Shown piece by piece: positions 6,635 through 19,085 of a DNA stretch of 64,000 bases (positions within the stretch are counted from its first letter, which is position 1; each line of letters starts with the position of its first letter). Source of the DNA: Beijerinckiaceae bacterium (GTDB lineage: Bacteria; Pseudomonadota; Alphaproteobacteria; Rhizobiales; Beijerinckiaceae); contig CANGTC010000003.1 in assembly GCA_947456505.1 (NCBI GenBank), forward strand, positions 19,170 through 83,169. Direction: 5' to 3'. A program made the translations under genes and the position numbers. The notes below the pieces were generated by a model that was not told the DNA's origin, did no database searches, and saw only the letters and a list, made by a program, of their open reading frames with translations.

Positions 6635-7621
6635 TCACTTCTTCTTCATTCCCAACAGCTTCGCCAGCGCGTCCACCTGATCAAGCTGCGCCTGCACCGA
6701 GGCCTCGAGTTCGGCGACGCCGCCGGGGGCTGGCGTCTGGCCGCTCGCGGTCAGGCGGTCGAGCACGGTCTGATCCTTCATGACCTCCACAAAGTCCTGG
6801 CCGATGCGTCGGCGCAGATCGAGCGGCATCCTGGCGGGGCCGAACACGCCTGAGAGGCCATCAAGCTGCAATGAGGGCACGCCCAGTTCGCCCGCCGTAG
6901 GCACATCCGGCAGAGCGGCGACGCGCTCGCGCGCGCCTATCGCCACAACGCGAACCTGCCCGCCTTCGGCTGTCGGACGCACTGCGGCATAGGAGCTGAA
7001 GATGACGTTCAGCCGCCCCTCGGCCAGATCTGGCATGGCCTGCACCACGTCCTTGTAGGGCACCTTCTGGATATCGATGCCCTCGGATTTCAGGAAGCCG
7101 TCAAAGACAAACTCCGAAATTCCCTGAGGCACCGCAGCGTTCAGCTTTCCGGGATTGGCGCGCGCCCGGGCCATGAAACTCTTCAGGTCCGCATCCCCGT
7201 CCTTCGACGACAGCGTGACCGCCATGAGGGTGTTGGCGATACGCGCGACGGGCAGAACATCCCTTTTGAAATCATAGGGCGTCTTTTCAAGCATGTAGGG
7301 GTGCACCGTATAGGAGCCTACTCCCACGAAAAGCAGAACGTGATCGTCGTTGGCGTTGATGAAGGAGGTCATCGCCAGGATGCCGTCGCCGCCCGGACGG
7401 TTCTCGATCACAACCGGATGTCCCCAGCGCGCCGCCAGTTTATCGCTAACCAGCCGCGCTCCGACGTCAATGCCCGACCCCGGCCCAAAGGGCAGAATGA
7501 AGCGCACAGGGCGGGTCGGCCAAGGCCCGGGCGTCTGCGCAAGGGCGCGCTCAGGGGCGAATAACGCGGCGGACATAATGGATAGAATGAAGATGAACGC
7601 CGCAGCCAGGCGTCGCGCCAT
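6635..7621 (-). CDS. Bug/TctC family tripartite tricarboxylate transporter substrate-binding protein
   Basis: Signal peptide, WPTRPVRFILPFGPGSGIDVGARLVSDKLAARWGHPVVIENRPGGDGILA. Confidence 0.9.
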   Translation of the reverse strand: MARRLAAAFIFILSIMSAALFAPERALAQTPGPWPTRPVRFILPFGPGSGIDVGARLVSDKLAARWGHPVVIENRPGGDGILAMTSFINANDDHVLLFVGVGSYTVHPYMLEKTPYDFKRDVLPVARIANTLMAVTLSSKDGDADLKSFMARARANPGKLNAAVPQGISEFVFDGFLKSEGIDIQKVPYKDVVQAMPDLAEGRLNVIFSSYAAVRPTAEGGQVRVVAIGARERVAALPDVPTAGELGVPSLQLDGLSGVFGPARMPLDLRRRIGQDFVEVMKDQTVLDRLTASGQTPAPGGVAELEASVQAQLDQVDALAKLLGMKKK

Positions 7622-7748
7622 GATTCCCTCCCGTGATTCGGTGTGCGCGCGGCTCTGCGGCCGCCTTCGACACCGCCATTCTTATCCAGATCGTAGCATT
7701 CAGCTTAGGCAAATCAATAGATTATGTCATTTTTCGCCCCCACTTGCG

Positions 7749-7778
7749 GAACGCACCGCGAACATATAGTGTTCGTTC
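7749..7778 (+). promoter_or_regulatory. Candidate LexA-binding (SOS) box cluster upstream of lexA
   Basis: GAAC-N7-GAAC at 7749-7763 (complement of GTTC-N7-GTTC), overlapped by GAAC-N7-GTTC at 7760-7774 and then GTTCGTTC. Confidence 0.7.
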
Positions 7779-7875
7779 ACGCTTTGTTTAAGCGTTTCCC
7801 GCAGTCTTCCCTACGGATCCCCGTTTGCGAATCTCTGCGCGCCGGCCATCGGGACGGGACCTTCGAGAGGACGCC

Positions 7876-8586
7876 ATGCTGACGAAAAAACAGAGTGAGC
7901 TGCTACGCTTCATCAACGAGCGGCTCAAGGAAGATGGGGTGCCCCCCTCTTTCGACGAAATGAAGGAAGCGCTGGACCTGCGCTCCAAATCCGGAATCCA
8001 TCGCCTGATCATGGCCCTTGAGGAGCGTGGCTTCATCCGCCGCCTGCCGAACCGGGCCCGCGCCCTTGAGGTGCTGCGCCTGCCCGAGTCCTCGACGCCC
8101 GCCCCCGGCGCGCGCGGCGGCAAGTTCTCACCCTCCGTCATCGAGGGCGATCTGGGCCGTATCCGCCAAACCAACACGGTACCGATCCCCGGCGACGACA
8201 GCGGCTCAGTTTCAATCCCGGTCATGGGGCGCATCGCGGCGGGCACGCCCATCAGCGCCATCCAGAGCCGTAGCCACACCATCGGCATGCCTGCCGACAT
8301 GCTTGGGCTTGGCGACCATTTCGCACTGGAGGTGCGCGGCGACTCCATGATCGAGGCGGGCATACTCGATCAGGATGTGGTCATCATCCGCAAGCAGGAC
8401 ACGGCCGAGACCGGCGACATCGTGGTGGCCCTCATCGATGACGAGGAGGCGACTTTGAAGCGCCTGCGCAAACGCGGCGCCTCCATCGCGCTGGAGGCGG
8501 CCAACCCCGCCTACGAGACCCGGATCTTCGGACCCGACCGGATCCGCATTCAGGGTCGGCTCGTGAGCCTGATCCGGAAGTACTGA
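7876..8586 (+). CDS. lexA: LexA repressor
   Basis: [45 protein letters not shown]..., Ala-Gly cleavage site RIAAGTP, S24 peptidase [13 protein letters not shown] and [20 protein letters not shown]. Confidence 0.97.
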
Positions 8587-12204: not shown

Positions 12205-12233
12205 TGATCCGCAACCCCTGCGATGTCGTAGAC
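12205..12233 (+). promoter_or_regulatory. Candidate RpoE/ECF-type promoter of photolyase gene
   Basis: TGATCC (12205-12210), 18-nt spacer, TAGAC (12229-12233); the -10 is preceded by CG, giving TGATCC-N16-CGTA. Confidence 0.5.
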
Positions 12234-12270: not shown

Positions 12271-13749
12271 GTGGTGAAAGCGAATGCGCAGGGCGGTCCC
12301 GCCCTTGTATGGTTAAGAGATGACCTGCGCCTTGCTGATCAACCGGCGCTTGCGGCGGCGGTGGCGAGCGGAGCTCCCATACTCTGCCTCTATGTCTTTG
12401 ACGAAGAAAGCCCCGGGCTGCGGCCGCTCGGCGGGGCGTCTCGCTGGTGGCTGCATCACAGTCTGACTGCTTTGGGCGAAGCTCTGGCCGCCATTGGCGG
12501 TCGGCTCGACATCCTTCAGGGCCGCGCGGGCGATGTCGTGCCCGCCGTGGCGCGGGCGGCTGGCGCCTCCTGCGCGTTCTGGACGCGGCGCTACGAGGCG
12601 GCGACCATCGAGATCGACACGGCCGTGAAGGCGGCGCTGGTCGCAGATGGCCTGCGGGTCGAGAGCTTCAATGGCCAGCTCCTGTTCGAGCCATGGACGC
12701 TGCGCACCAAGATGGGCGACTACTACCGGGTCTTCACCCCCTTCTGGCGCTCCTGCCTCGCCCTGCCCGATCCCGGTCAGCCAACCCCCGCCCCGCGCAA
12801 GCTGACCGGAGCGGAATGGCCAGCCAAAGCGCCCAAGCGCGCGGCCCTCAAATCCCTCGGCCTGCTGCCGACCAAGCCTGATTGGGCGGGCGGGCTGCGT
12901 GGCGCCTGGACGCCCGGCGAGGCCGGCGCCAAGGCGCGTCTGGCGGCTTTTCTGGATGACGGGATCGCCTCCTACGCCAGCCATCGCGACCGGCCCGACA
13001 TTCCCGCGACATCGCGCCTCTCGCCCCATCTGCGCTTTGGCGAAATCAGCGCCCGGCAGGCCTTCGCGGCGGCGAGGCACGCCGTTGACGCGGGCAAGGC
13101 GCCCGCAAAGGACGTGGAGAAATTCGTGGCGGAGCTCGGCTGGCGTGAATTCTCCTACCATCTGCTCTTCCATAATCCCGATCTCGCCCACAAGAATTTT
13201 CAGGCACGTTTCGACGCCTTCCCCTGGCGCCAGCCCTCAAGCGCGGAACTGAAGGCCTGGAAGACCGGCCGCACCGGCTTTCCCATCGTGGACGCGGGCA
13301 TGCGCGAGCTCTGGCATACCGGCACGATGCACAATCGGGTGCGGATGATCGCCGCCTCCTTCCTGGTGAAGGACTTCATGGCGGACTGGCGCATCGGCGA
13401 GGACTGGTTCTGGGACACGCTCTGCGACGCGGACCCCGCCAGCAATGCGGCGAGCTGGCAATGGGTGGCGGGCTCGGGCGCGGACGCCGCCCCCTATTTC
13501 CGTGTCTTCAACCCGATCCTGCAGGGCCTCAAGTTCGATCCCCTCGGCGCCTATGTGCGGACCTGGGTTCCGGAACTGGCGGCTCTGCCCGACGAGTGGA
13601 TCCACAAGCCCTGGGAGGCGCCCCCATTGGTGCTGAAGGCCGCGAATGTCGCCCTGCCCAGGGACTATCCCCTTCCTGTCGTCGATCATGCGATGGCGCG
13701 GGATCGTGCGCTCGCGGCCTTCACCAGCCTCAAGGCCGCCACGGCCTGA
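12271..13749 (+). CDS. phr: Deoxyribodipyrimidine photo-lyase / cryptochrome family
   Basis: GGPALVWLRDDLRLADQPALAAAV..., GRTGFPIVDAGMRELWHTGTMHNRVRMIAASFLVKDFMADWRIGEDWFWDTLCDADPASNAASWQWVAGSGADAAPYFRVFNP. Confidence 0.97.
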   Translation: MVKANAQGGPALVWLRDDLRLADQPALAAAVASGAPILCLYVFDEESPGLRPLGGASRWWLHHSLTALGEALAAIGGRLDILQGRAGDVVPAVARAAGASCAFWTRRYEAATIEIDTAVKAALVADGLRVESFNGQLLFEPWTLRTKMGDYYRVFTPFWRSCLALPDPGQPTPAPRKLTGAEWPAKAPKRAALKSLGLLPTKPDWAGGLRGAWTPGEAGAKARLAAFLDDGIASYASHRDRPDIPATSRLSPHLRFGEISARQAFAAARHAVDAGKAPAKDVEKFVAELGWREFSYHLLFHNPDLAHKNFQARFDAFPWRQPSSAELKAWKTGRTGFPIVDAGMRELWHTGTMHNRVRMIAASFLVKDFMADWRIGEDWFWDTLCDADPASNAASWQWVAGSGADAAPYFRVFNPILQGLKFDPLGAYVRTWVPELAALPDEWIHKPWEAPPLVLKAANVALPRDYPLPVVDHAMARDRALAAFTSLKAATA

Positions 13750-13867: not shown

Positions 13868-15172
13868 ATGCGCATAGCCATCATCGGATCGGGTATTTCT
13901 GGTATGGGGGCGGCTCTCGCCCTGTCCCAGGCCGGTCACGAGATCGTTCTTTACGAGAAGGACCTGCGTCCTGGTGGCCATGCGGCGACGGTGGACATCG
14001 AGCACACCGGTCGCAAAATCACGGTCGACACCGGCTTCATTGTCTATAACACACTGAATTATCCTAATTTTACACCGATGCTGGAGTGGCTGGGGGTCGC
14101 CACCCAGGCCTCGGAAATGAGCTTTTCGGTCTCCGCCGATCAGGGTCGCCTCGAGTGGTGCGGGCGCGACAGCGGGGGCGTTTTGCGCTCCCTTTTCGCC
14201 CAGCGCAGCAACCTGATCTCCCCCGGCTTCCTGCACATGCTGATGGAAGTCGGGCGATTCCAGACCCAGGCGCGGGGCGATCTGCAGCGCGGAACCATCG
14301 GCGAGGGGAGCCTGGGTGACTATTTAAATAGACACCGATTCTCGGCCCGCCTGCGCGACGACTATCTCGTGCCCATGGGCGCGGCCATCTGGTCCACCTC
14401 CCCCGCCCGGATGCTGGAGTTTCCGGCGACCAGTTTCATCTCCTTCTTCGACAACCATTGCCTGCTACAGTGGAAGCGCCCGCAGTGGCGCACCGTGACG
14501 GGCGGCAGTCGCTCCTATGTGCTGGCGGTCATGCGGCGGCTAGGCGATAGCCTGCGCCTTGGGGCCTGCGTCACAGGCATACATCGGAACGCCACAGGGG
14601 TAGAGGTCGAGGACGCGGAGGGACGGCGCGAGCGCTTCGATCATGCAGTGATCGCCGCTCATGCGCCCGACGCCCTCGGCATGCTGGCGGATGCGGACGC
14701 CAACGAGATGGATGTGCTGGGCGCCTGCGGCTATTCCGCCAATGACGTGATCCTGCATCGCGACCCAAGCCTGATGCCCAAACGCAAGGACGCCTGGGCC
14801 GCCTGGAACTTCCTGCGCGAGGGAACCGACGCCACCCGCAAGGTCGCCGTCACCTACTGGATGAACGCCCTGCAGGCGATCGATCCCTCACGGCCGGTCT
14901 TCATCACCCTCAACCCCCCCTTCGAGCCGGATCCGGCGCTGGTCCTCGGGCGTTACAGCTACGATCACCCGCAGTTTGACCTCGCAGCCCTTGCTGCGCG
15001 TGACAAACTTGAAGCCATTCAAGGACGACGCCGCACCTGGTTCTGCGGCGCCTGGACCGGGCATGGCTTCCATGAGGACGGGTTGGTTTCAGGCCTGGGA
15101 GTGGCGGCGGCGCTTGGCGCCAATGCTCCCTGGGCGATGGGGGCAGACGCCATGCGAACAGCAGCGGAGTAG
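13868..15172 (+). CDS. FAD/NAD(P)-binding oxidoreductase (flavin amine oxidase/desaturase-like)
   Basis: MRIAIIGSGISGMGAALALSQAGHEIVLYEKDLRPGGHAATVDI dinucleotide-binding motif; ends WFCGAWTGHGFHEDGLVSGLGVAAALG. Confidence 0.9.
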   Translation: MRIAIIGSGISGMGAALALSQAGHEIVLYEKDLRPGGHAATVDIEHTGRKITVDTGFIVYNTLNYPNFTPMLEWLGVATQASEMSFSVSADQGRLEWCGRDSGGVLRSLFAQRSNLISPGFLHMLMEVGRFQTQARGDLQRGTIGEGSLGDYLNRHRFSARLRDDYLVPMGAAIWSTSPARMLEFPATSFISFFDNHCLLQWKRPQWRTVTGGSRSYVLAVMRRLGDSLRLGACVTGIHRNATGVEVEDAEGRRERFDHAVIAAHAPDALGMLADADANEMDVLGACGYSANDVILHRDPSLMPKRKDAWAAWNFLREGTDATRKVAVTYWMNALQAIDPSRPVFITLNPPFEPDPALVLGRYSYDHPQFDLAALAARDKLEAIQGRRRTWFCGAWTGHGFHEDGLVSGLGVAAALGANAPWAMGADAMRTAAE

Positions 15173-15180
15173 CCGCAGGC

Positions 15181-15984
15181 ATGAACACGCCATTGTTTCC
15201 GCCACCAGCAGACATCGCCTCACTCTATGTGGGCGACGTGATGCATGCGCGGCTGAAACCCTTCGGCCATCGCTTCACCTATCGTGTCTTCTCGGTGCTG
15301 CTGGATCTTGACCATCTGGCCGAGGCGGGAGGCCGCTCGCCAATCTTCTCCATCGGGCGATTCAATCTGGTCTCCTTCGCCCCCCGCGACCATGGCCCAA
15401 GGGACGGTTCCGACCTGCGCGCCCATGTGGAACGCCTGCTGGCGGCGCAGGGGCTGGAGGCGCCAGCACGCATTCTTCTGCTCGCCTATCCCCGCGTTCT
15501 GGGGTTCACCTTCAATCCGCTGGCGGTCTATTATTGCTATGACGCGCAGGGGCGGATCACCTCGCTGATCTATGAGGTCCGGAACACCTTCGGCGGCATG
15601 CATCCCTATGTGCTGCCAGTGACGGACGGCGCTCTGGATGCGCGGGGACTGCGGCAAGAGCAATCCAAGCTCTTCTATGTCTCACCCTTCCTGCACATGG
15701 ACCACCGCTATCTCTTCCGCATGCGCCCGCCCGGCGAGTCCGTGCATATCCGCATTCTCGAATGCGATGCGCAGGATCCGGTGCTCGCCGCCACCTTTCA
15801 GGGCGACCGCCAGCCCTTCTCCACCGCGACCCTGACCCGCGCCTGCCTCGCCCTGCCCTTCATGACCTTCAAGGTTGTGGCCGCCATTCATTGGCAGGCG
15901 CTCAAGCTCTGGCTGAAGGGTGCGAAATATATTCCAGAGGCGCCCAGCGCCAACCCACAACCCGCCGTTCGACCTCACTCCTAG
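15181..15984 (+). CDS. DUF1365 domain-containing protein
   Basis: LYVGDVMHARLKPFGHRFTYRVFSVLLDLD...FTFNPLAVYYCYD...YVSPFLHMDHRYLFRMRPPGESV, typical DUF1365; 8 nt after the oxidoreductase. Confidence 0.9.
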   Translation: MNTPLFPPPADIASLYVGDVMHARLKPFGHRFTYRVFSVLLDLDHLAEAGGRSPIFSIGRFNLVSFAPRDHGPRDGSDLRAHVERLLAAQGLEAPARILLLAYPRVLGFTFNPLAVYYCYDAQGRITSLIYEVRNTFGGMHPYVLPVTDGALDARGLRQEQSKLFYVSPFLHMDHRYLFRMRPPGESVHIRILECDAQDPVLAATFQGDRQPFSTATLTRACLALPFMTFKVVAAIHWQALKLWLKGAKYIPEAPSANPQPAVRPHS

Positions 15985-15998
15985 GATCGCCGAAAGCC

Positions 15999-17237
15999 AT
16001 GCCAGACGATAACGCCGCCTTTCCGGTCATGGAACTCACCAGCGCCAACGCAGCTGCCTTGACCGCTCATTATCCCTTCGCCGTCCGACAAGCCCTGAAG
16101 CTTGCGACCCATATCGAGGCCGGGCAGCTGGAGGTGCGCCTGCCCGATGGCTGCGCCTATCGCATCACCGGCGACAAGCCCGGTCCACACGCCATGATGC
16201 TGATCCGGGATCTGGATTTCGCCAGCACCCTCTCCCAGGGGGAGATTGGCGTTGCGGAATCCTTTTTGCGCGGCCAGTGGGACAGTCCTGATCTGACGGC
16301 CTTTCTTGAGCTGTTCTGCGTCAACCAGCCCTTTCTCGAGCGATTGATGGATGGCAAGCCAGTAGTGCGCCTGCTGCAGATGGCCCGCCACTGGATGAAC
16401 CGGAACACCAAAGCCGGATCGCGCCGCAACATCCACGCCCATTACGATCTGGGCAACAGTTTCTACAGCGCCTGGCTCGACCGCTCCATGACCTATTCCT
16501 CAGCGCTGTTCGATGAATCCCGCGACCTCCTCGCCGGCCAGCAGCGCAAATATGCGGCGCTCGCCGAGCGCACCGCCATTGGACCGGACCATCATGTGCT
16601 GGAGATCGGCTGCGGCTGGGGCGGCTTCGCCGAATATGCGGCGCGCGAGATTGGCTGCAAGATCACGGGCCTCACCATCAGTCAGGAGCAATATGACTTC
16701 GCCTGCAAGCGCATCTTTGAGGCGGGCCTCAACGAGAAGGTGGATCTCAAGCTGGAGGACTACCGCGACGAAAAGGGCGCCTATGACCGCATCGCCTCCA
16801 TCGAAATGTTTGAGGCGGTGGGCGAGGAATACTGGCCCGCTTATTTCCATCAGGTGCGCGAACGGCTGAAGCCCGGCGGCTTTGCGGGGATTCAGGTCAT
16901 CACCATCGAGGAGAGCCTGTTCGGCCGCTACAGGCGCGAGCTGGACTTCATCCGCCGCTATGTCTTCCCCGGGGGCATGCTTCCCACTGGCGCCATCATG
17001 CGCAATCTCGGCGCAAAGGCGGGGCTATCCCTCCACAACGAGCGGATTTTCGGCCGCGATTATGCGCTGACGCTGGTGCATTGGCGCGAACGGTTCCGCG
17101 CGGCCTGGCCCAATCTGACGTCGATGGGTTTTGACGAGCGATTCCGCAGGCTGTGGGAATATTACCTCGCCTATTGCGAGGCGGGCTTCCGGGCGGGCAC
17201 TATCGATGTGCGGCAGATGGTGTTCGCGCGGAGCTGA
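15999..17237 (+). CDS. Cyclopropane-fatty-acyl-phospholipid synthase family SAM-dependent methyltransferase
   Basis: RRNIHAHYDLGNSFYSAWLDRSMTYSSALF, VLEIGCGWGGFAEYAAREIGCKITGLTISQEQYDFACKR, FIRRYVFPGGMLP: CFA synthase signatures. Confidence 0.93.
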   Translation: MPDDNAAFPVMELTSANAAALTAHYPFAVRQALKLATHIEAGQLEVRLPDGCAYRITGDKPGPHAMMLIRDLDFASTLSQGEIGVAESFLRGQWDSPDLTAFLELFCVNQPFLERLMDGKPVVRLLQMARHWMNRNTKAGSRRNIHAHYDLGNSFYSAWLDRSMTYSSALFDESRDLLAGQQRKYAALAERTAIGPDHHVLEIGCGWGGFAEYAAREIGCKITGLTISQEQYDFACKRIFEAGLNEKVDLKLEDYRDEKGAYDRIASIEMFEAVGEEYWPAYFHQVRERLKPGGFAGIQVITIEESLFGRYRRELDFIRRYVFPGGMLPTGAIMRNLGAKAGLSLHNERIFGRDYALTLVHWRERFRAAWPNLTSMGFDERFRRLWEYYLAYCEAGFRAGTIDVRQMVFARS

Positions 17238-17535: not shown

Positions 17536-18318
17536 TCAACCCCGCCCCGTCCCCTTGCCCACCAGCTTGAAGAACCAGGAATAGGGCAGCAACCGCAGGG
17601 TCTTCAGCAGCCAGACCATACGGCGGGGGAAAGCCACTTCGAAACGCTCTGACGCCAGACCGTCGCAGATACGCCGCGCGGCGTCATCCGCCTCAATCAC
17701 GAAGGGCATGGGGAAATCGTTCTTGGCGGTCAGGGGCGTATGGACGAAGCCCGGGCAGATCACTTGCACGCCCACGCCTAGAGGCTCCAGCCCAAAGCGC
17801 AGGGACTCGCACATGGAAATGAGCGCCGCTTTGGAAGAACCGTAGGCGGCGGCACGGGGCAGGCCCACATAGCCCGCAACCGAAGATACAATCGCCACTT
17901 GCCCCTTGCCTCTGGCGATCATGCGCGGCAGCAAGGGCTCCAGCGAATTCAGCGTTCCAAAGAGATTGACCTCATAGGTCTGTCGGAAGGCGTCGCCCGC
18001 CCATTCACCGGCGTCATCGGGAAAGAAGGTGCCCACATTGAGAAACGCGAGAGCTATGGTCTGGCCGCTCGCCTCGATCTCGGCGACAACTTTCGCAAGG
18101 CCCTCACGATCCGTCACATCGCCGGGAAAGGGAATGAGGGTCAGTCCCTGGGTGGCGGCTTCGATGGAGAATCTGACGAGTTCATCGGCCCGGCGCGCTG
18201 TGACGGCGACCCGCCATCCCCTGCGCGCCAGCTCAAGCGCGACGGCGCGACCTATGCCGGAACTGGCGCCCGTCACCCAGGCGAGGCCATCGGACGGCGA
18301 CGTGCGAGTCGTCTTCAT
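17536..18318 (-). CDS. SDR family NAD(P)-dependent oxidoreductase
   Basis: LAWVTGASSGIGRAVALELARRGWRVAVTARR ... IVSSVAGYVGLPRAAAYGSSKAAL (TGxxxGIG, YxxxK). Confidence 0.93.
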   Translation of the reverse strand: MKTTRTSPSDGLAWVTGASSGIGRAVALELARRGWRVAVTARRADELVRFSIEAATQGLTLIPFPGDVTDREGLAKVVAEIEASGQTIALAFLNVGTFFPDDAGEWAGDAFRQTYEVNLFGTLNSLEPLLPRMIARGKGQVAIVSSVAGYVGLPRAAAYGSSKAALISMCESLRFGLEPLGVGVQVICPGFVHTPLTAKNDFPMPFVIEADDAARRICDGLASERFEVAFPRRMVWLLKTLRLLPYSWFFKLVGKGTGRG

Positions 18319-18351: not shown

Positions 18352-19017
18352 TCAGTGCGTACGGCCGAAGAAGCGGTCCAGAATGCGGCCAACTGGACCA
18401 GTCAGCCGCAGAGGGGCGTCGGTCACGGCAAAGCAGATGCAATCCTCGCCGTCGCTGGTCATGGGCCGGTGGTCGAGATCGGCGTCAGCTATGGCGATGT
18501 CGCCACGACCATAACGTCCCGTGACATCGCTGAAGGCGCCCTGCAGCACGAGCGTGACCTCCGAACCCTCATGGGTATGAGAGGGAACGCGGCTGCCACC
18601 GGAAATCCAGAGAAGGGACGCCTCGCCACGAATGCTCTCGCTGATCTTGTATTCCCGCACGCCGGGGATCTTCTTGCGCCACCTGAGGTCGCTGATTTCA
18701 GACCCCACAAGCCGCAATAGAGGCGCAGGCAAAACTGACTGGGGCGCCGGGGCGACGATGGGGCTGGCGCTGGCGAACACGGCAGCCAGCCGGGCGTCCC
18801 GGTCGCTCAGGGGGGCGGGCTCGACCCGCTCCACCTCGCCCGCCGCCAGATCCTCGAGAGCGGCGACAAAACGACGGTTCTTCGGATTCAGCAACAAATG
18901 GGAAGCCACGAGCGCGTGGGCCGGGCGATCAAGCGCGCCAACGCAATAGGCAGCGAGAAGGGCGTCGAGCGGCTTGGCGGGGTCTTGAAGACGGTCTTGC
19001 GTTGAAATAGCTGACAT
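18352..19017 (-). CDS. ChrR-like anti-sigma factor/cupin domain protein with degenerate zinc-binding motif
   Basis: LDALLAAYCVGALDRPAHALVASHLLLNPKNRRFV plus cupin GGSRVPSHTHEGSEVTLVLQGAFSDVTGRYGRGDIAIADADLDHRP; 33 nt upstream of SDR. Confidence 0.82.
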   Translation of the reverse strand: MSAISTQDRLQDPAKPLDALLAAYCVGALDRPAHALVASHLLLNPKNRRFVAALEDLAAGEVERVEPAPLSDRDARLAAVFASASPIVAPAPQSVLPAPLLRLVGSEISDLRWRKKIPGVREYKISESIRGEASLLWISGGSRVPSHTHEGSEVTLVLQGAFSDVTGRYGRGDIAIADADLDHRPMTSDGEDCICFAVTDAPLRLTGPVGRILDRFFGRTH

Positions 19018-19056: not shown

Positions 19057-19085
19057 AGTTACGCACGATTCTCCAGTTCGGATCA
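19057..19085 (-). promoter_or_regulatory. Candidate RpoE/ECF-type promoter of the chrR-like/SDR operon
   Basis: On the minus strand TGATCC (19085-19080), 18-nt spacer, TAACT (19061-19057); -10 preceded by CG, giving TGATCC-N16-CGTA as upstream of the photolyase. Confidence 0.55.

Follow-up and report, generated by a model that had tools for sequence, protein, structure and literature searches.

The closest described relative of the protein considered here is ChrR of R. sphaeroides, the anti-sigma factor of the ECF11 sigma factor sigma-E (RpoE). Zinc in its anti-sigma domain is held by H6, H31, C35 and C38 and is required for inhibition of sigma; the cupin domain is required for the response to singlet oxygen, and ChrR lacking the cupin still inhibits sigma (PMC6852236). 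What exactly the anti-sigma-domain zinc does in the singlet-oxygen response is given as unknown in the same review (PMC6852236). A study with a model peptide makes the case that singlet oxygen reacts directly with the Zn(Cys)2(His)2 site (PMC6432622). Turnover of ChrR needs proteins of the furan-fatty-acid pathway (PMC6852236), in which furan fatty acids are made by UfaM, UfaD and UfaO. The RpoE network includes photolyase, rpoH2-like and cryptochrome-like genes (PMC7074977). In Azospirillum, ChrR1 is rpoE1-linked (PMC13274349).

Non-zinc forms account for about 44 % of class I anti-sigma domains, and zinc and non-zinc domains are mixed within groups, according to a survey of genes no more than 10 coding sequences away from an ECF sigma (PMC7406223); a zinc-less anti-sigma domain is therefore not new in kind. 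In RseA, protein packing does the job that zinc does in ChrR (PMC6852236). No report of a zinc-less ChrR, or of a chrR unlinked from its sigma gene, was found in the open-access literature searched. The ROS-inducible EcfQ and EcfF of Bradyrhizobium were considered and set aside, since ecfF pairs with the membrane anti-sigma OsrA and ecfQ has none (PMC3420878).

The ChrR homologue and its metal-ligand positions

The window, i.e. the whole stretch of 64,000 nucleotides that was analysed, carries a chrR-like gene at 18352..19017 on the minus strand. Its product, 221 aa from an ATG start, is by its sequence a ChrR homologue over the full length. It scored 163.5 bits against TIGR02451 (ChrR family anti-sigma-E factor; cut-off 124.5), while the score of 114.8 bits against the equivalog NF051881 (stress anti-sigma factor ChrR) was below the 300-bit threshold of that model. 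Profile searches gave a Cupin_7 match at 1.7e-12, and residues 18-205 matched R. sphaeroides ChrR (PDB 2z2s) with an E value of 1.6e-40. An AlphaFold model made with 12 sequences (mean pLDDT 79.6, pTM 0.74) had helices at 16-25, 31-43, 45-64 and 73-82 followed by a cupin barrel, and the PDB structures most similar to it were those of ChrR bound to SigE in 2q1z (E 9.7e-18, TM 0.69/0.83). This model is no proof of folding without zinc, because AlphaFold can return the family fold whatever its stability.

The predicted four-helix anti-sigma domain (residues 16-82) is devoid of the zinc site. In the alignment, H6, H31, C35 and C38 of ChrR correspond to K15, H40, N44 and N47, and the H-x3-C-x2-C motif with an N-terminal ligand that marks a ZAS domain is thus absent. 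The sequence-only reading had seen HLLLNPKN in place of HxxxCxxC, with both Cys replaced by Asn and no N-terminal His, and the alignment gave the same result. It also agreed with that reading on the cupin site, placed in HTHEGSE and LDHRP: the ChrR ligands H141, H143, E147 and H177 are represented by H147, H149, E153 and H183, so that all four are kept. Residues 1-8 of ChrR from R. sphaeroides were entered in the alignment separately, the remainder coming from the PDB alignment; the register is independent of this N terminus, because many HHCC homologues show the same N-terminal His.

Loss of the cysteine pair among ChrR lineages

Homologues were gathered from named GTDB genomes and from 298 genomes of the family to which the window belongs. 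The clade containing the window's ChrR comprised 83 distinct sequences from Hyphomicrobiales (Beijerinckiaceae, Salinarimonas, Roseibium and Blastochloris). The Cys pair was absent from all 83, and a lone oddity or sequencing error is ruled out by this identical, clade-wide loss. H31 (H40 in the window's protein) was kept in 82 of 82 scored members, almost all members had another residue for H6, and the cupin HHEH set was kept throughout with the sole exception of L076. The zinc counts leave out L080 and L212, which were out of register at the ligand positions. Twenty-four aligned rows carried H-H-C-C, and those from the window's family adjoined a sigma gene.

Across the clade no substitute set of conserved Cys or His was found in the Cys-less anti-sigma domain, which was free of Cys altogether in most members, in line with the zinc independence proposed earlier. 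The constancy of H40, together with an H34 present in 71 of 82 members, would suit a domain that still coordinates zinc, or a different metal, with other ligands, for example these two His plus side chains supplied by the N terminus or by sigma. Such a site is nevertheless very unlikely, given that the domain has no conserved Cys and only one invariant His, that S/K/R predominate at position 44 and N/S at position 47, and that four other Cys-less ChrR families have Tyr, Lys or Met in place of the last His. Near-invariant hydrophobic positions specific to the clade (L36, F/Y50, V51 and L54) would fit a helix bundle held by packing, and the helix-IV residues R73, L77, I80 and F81 were nearly invariant.

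The exceptional L076 (G037, 7202-7888) belongs to the unlinked clade and sits on a very long branch. It has also lost its cupin ligands (AGEQ), lacks the promoter motif described below and has no ufa genes nearby; it may represent loss of the sensor or decay. An anti-sigma domain in decay, with the gene heading towards a free cupin or a pseudogene, would accommodate this long branch and its lost cupin ligands, but is hardly credible in view of the intact open frames and of the promoter and domain residues conserved across the clade.

A ChrR tree was built without the zinc-ligand columns. On it, the Cys state changed three times and linkage to sigma once. By this sequence-based reconstruction, Cys loss in ChrR happened at least three times, and two of the losses left chrR in an operon with sigma. 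The two tree-supported Cys-less lineages that are still sigma-linked were RHDS-like in one case and HHSS/RHSS-like in the other (genera g12 and g18, same family). Class-wide, linked Cys-less ChrRs were found in three more families (L222, L223 and L226) and unlinked ones in L209, L211, L215, L213 and L225, all of these being off the tree. Two long-branch rows, L071 and L084, joined each other in the tree, leaving the clades used here unaffected. One sigma-linked ChrR placed among the Cys-less linked proteins, L189, had the intermediate motif PHCA, with one Cys left. The repeated loss of the zinc site in ChrRs that remain linked to sigma is the strongest indirect argument that, in bacteria other than R. 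sphaeroides, ChrR can act as an anti-sigma factor without this zinc.

The unlinked sigma factor and the promoter TGATCC-N16-CGTA

In each of the 19 large loci retrieved, an ECF sigma gene lay directly upstream of the canonical chrR. For the Cys-less clade, neither the window nor the retrieved loci, with flanks of about 1.5 to 7 kb, contained a sigma gene. A short-chain dehydrogenase/reductase (SDR) gene (17536..18318, minus strand) begins 33 nt 3' of chrR on the same strand, an order kept in most unlinked loci. Converging on this pair is a probable operon, the first gene of which is a DNA photolyase gene, phr (12271..13749, plus strand; named by reading its sequence). It is followed on the plus strand by an FAD amine-oxidase-like gene (13868..15172), presumably ufaD-like from the gene order, by a ufaO-like gene (15181..15984) encoding DUF1365, the domain contained in UfaO (PMC7380195), and by a ufaM-like gene for a cyclopropane-fatty-acid-synthase-like methyltransferase (15999..17237), the start codon of which was picked downstream of the DUF1365 gene. 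Because the ufaM-ufaO-ufaD row adjoins chrR in most linked and unlinked loci alike, it was, most simply, the sigma gene and not chrR that moved.

When a chrR-linked sigma was used as the query, one strong ECF11-type match was obtained in each of the 27 unlinked-chrR genomes checked, including that of the window (L089, G000:C289:2215-2784). This sigma and its orthologues were 41-53 % identical to a chrR-linked sigma, and it is this similarity, rather than a profile of ECF11, that places them in that group. In the window's MAG, which is 6 % contaminated, the sigma gene lies on a contig of 4.2 kb; orthologues in cleaner genomes agree with it. Two other Sigma70_r2 matches in the MAG, of 202 aa (EcfG-like) and 175 aa, were dropped as partners after comparison with chrR-linked sigmas. 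The 27 orphan-sigma loci had no ChrR-like gene out to about 4 kb from sigma, and the neighbours read in two inspected loci were not anti-sigma-like. To judge by reading, the sigma gene of L089, L090 and L104 adjoins a divergent IalB-like gene and is followed downstream by one resembling an L,D-transpeptidase or a quinone oxidoreductase.

Among the 298 family genomes, 76 had both the unlinked chrR and the orphan sigma, three had sigma alone, 218 had neither and a single genome, 73 % complete, had chrR alone; this co-occurrence links vertically inherited genes and so reflects few independent events, and the Fisher value calculated for it takes no account of common descent and is not to be taken as a probability. 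The orphan sigmas and the unlinked ChrRs each formed one clade in their trees (both at 99*). A canonical ChrR beside rpoE elsewhere in the window's MAG, which is 88 % complete, was sought and not found, nor was any second ChrR. Other arrangements were seen in families f122 and f124 (L236-L239, L245 and L246), whose genomes carry two ChrRs, one sigma-linked with a degraded zinc motif and one unlinked and Cys-less with its own TGATCC promoter, possibly a division of labour. Two HHCC ChrRs, L230 (G401) and L232 (G395), were preceded at 36-89 nt by a TGATCC promoter, and the DNA retrieved around them contained no sigma gene, which may indicate unlinking without loss of zinc.

An exact match to the ECF11-type promoter TGATCC-N16-CGTA precedes the window's chrR (19060..19085, minus strand; 43-68 nt 5' of the start codon), and a second one is found upstream of the photolyase gene (12205..12230, plus strand). 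In a single window such a pattern is weak evidence, a related pattern being expected 0.43 times by chance, and its weight comes from conservation among relatives. The motif was found 30-158 nt upstream of 73 of the 83 unlinked chrR genes, with a spacer of exactly 16 nt in 72. The strict form was missing from the other 10, comprising three with TGATCT, six of genus g29 and L076; the six g29 genes (L149, L150, L154, L160, L163 and L165) had no promoter of the strict form at all. Of 19 sigma genes in linked rpoE-chrR pairs, 15 had TGATCC-N16-CGTA close to their start; it was detected at none of 39 linked chrR genes and at none of 27 orphan sigma genes. In relatives, a CGTAA-form motif precedes photolyase, rpoH2-like, cryptochrome-like and chrR genes, and many of its other matches look like background.

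Alternatively, the protein might be a repurposed cupin sensor or effector of the sigma-E regulon that does not bind sigma, with the orphan sigma controlled transcriptionally or by another anti-sigma factor. The distance of the gene from sigma and the loss of ligands that are essential in R. sphaeroides would both be expected on such a reading, as would an orphan sigma that has no autoregulatory promoter and must hence be expressed by other means. We regard it as unlikely, since the anti-sigma domain is strongly conserved, helix IV included, Cys-less relatives are still found in operons with sigma, and chrR and the orphan sigma co-occur almost strictly; moreover, this ChrR is the only one found in the MAG, and the orphan sigma has no ChrR-like neighbour.

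Proposed function and comparison with known systems

The window's ChrR is probably a zinc-independent anti-sigma factor of the ECF11/sigma-E (RpoE) photo-oxidative-stress circuit, which would bind the unlinked sigma. The need of R. sphaeroides ChrR for its domain zinc when it inhibits sigma (PMC6852236) speaks against this reading. The sequence-only reading had left a choice between such a factor and a sensor paired with the downstream SDR. The first option gains indirect support from the want of replacement ligands, from the single ChrR in the MAG, from the unlinked ECF11-type sigma and the shared promoter, and from the Cys-less ChrRs that are in operons with sigma in other lineages. The pairing with the SDR is not needed, and the SDR gene is more likely a member of the regulon than a signalling partner, because in R. 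sphaeroides the SDR RSP_1087 already belongs to an RpoE-dependent operon beside rpoE-chrR (PMC7074977).

In unstressed cells, the four-helix N-terminal domain, packed hydrophobically instead of by zinc, would sequester the unlinked sigma. Singlet oxygen or an organic hydroperoxide would act via the cupin domain and lead to removal of ChrR, and the freed sigma would then transcribe phr-ufaD-ufaO-ufaM and chrR-SDR from TGATCC-N16-CGTA and, in relatives, rpoH2-like and cryptochrome-like genes also. The requirement for the cupin in R. sphaeroides and the inhibition of sigma by cupin-less ChrR fit this proposed division of labour. With this promoter upstream of chrR and absent from the sigma gene, the loop would make only its own inhibitor, i.e. 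negative feedback. On balance, it seems plausible that this holds for the Hyphomicrobiales lineage as a whole, namely a zinc-independent, unlinked ChrR in which sensing is by the cupin only and anti-sigma-only negative feedback has replaced the joint autoregulation of sigma and anti-sigma.

A ChrR lineage without the domain zinc but with the cupin site would separate the zinc-sensing and cupin-sensing hypotheses experimentally, and the changed feedback topology is likewise testable. The unlinked ChrR is also a candidate partner for a clade of ECF11-type sigmas that would otherwise be orphans, and a real class of anti-sigma factors of this kind would escape surveys based on gene neighbourhood (such as PMC7406223).

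Compared with R. sphaeroides ChrR, the window's protein is alike in its full-length homology, its modelled two-domain fold (2q1z), its four cupin ligands, its type of promoter and its adjoining furan-fatty-acid and SDR genes. It differs in lacking equivalents of H6, C35 and C38, and thus a zinc site in the anti-sigma domain, and in the position of its gene away from rpoE, such that chrR alone bears the sigma-E-type promoter and there is no rpoE-chrR operon. The non-zinc class I anti-sigma domains of E. coli RseA and M. tuberculosis RskA are likewise zinc-free, but these proteins regulate other ECF groups and have no ChrR-type cupin, whereas the window's protein is a full-length ChrR homologue. 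Closest in ligand state are the Cys-less sigma-linked ChrRs (g12 and g18; L222, L223 and L226), in which the zinc ligands are also gone and the cupin ligands kept; these differ in being in an operon with their own sigma, and those of g12 and g18 represent independent losses on the tree.
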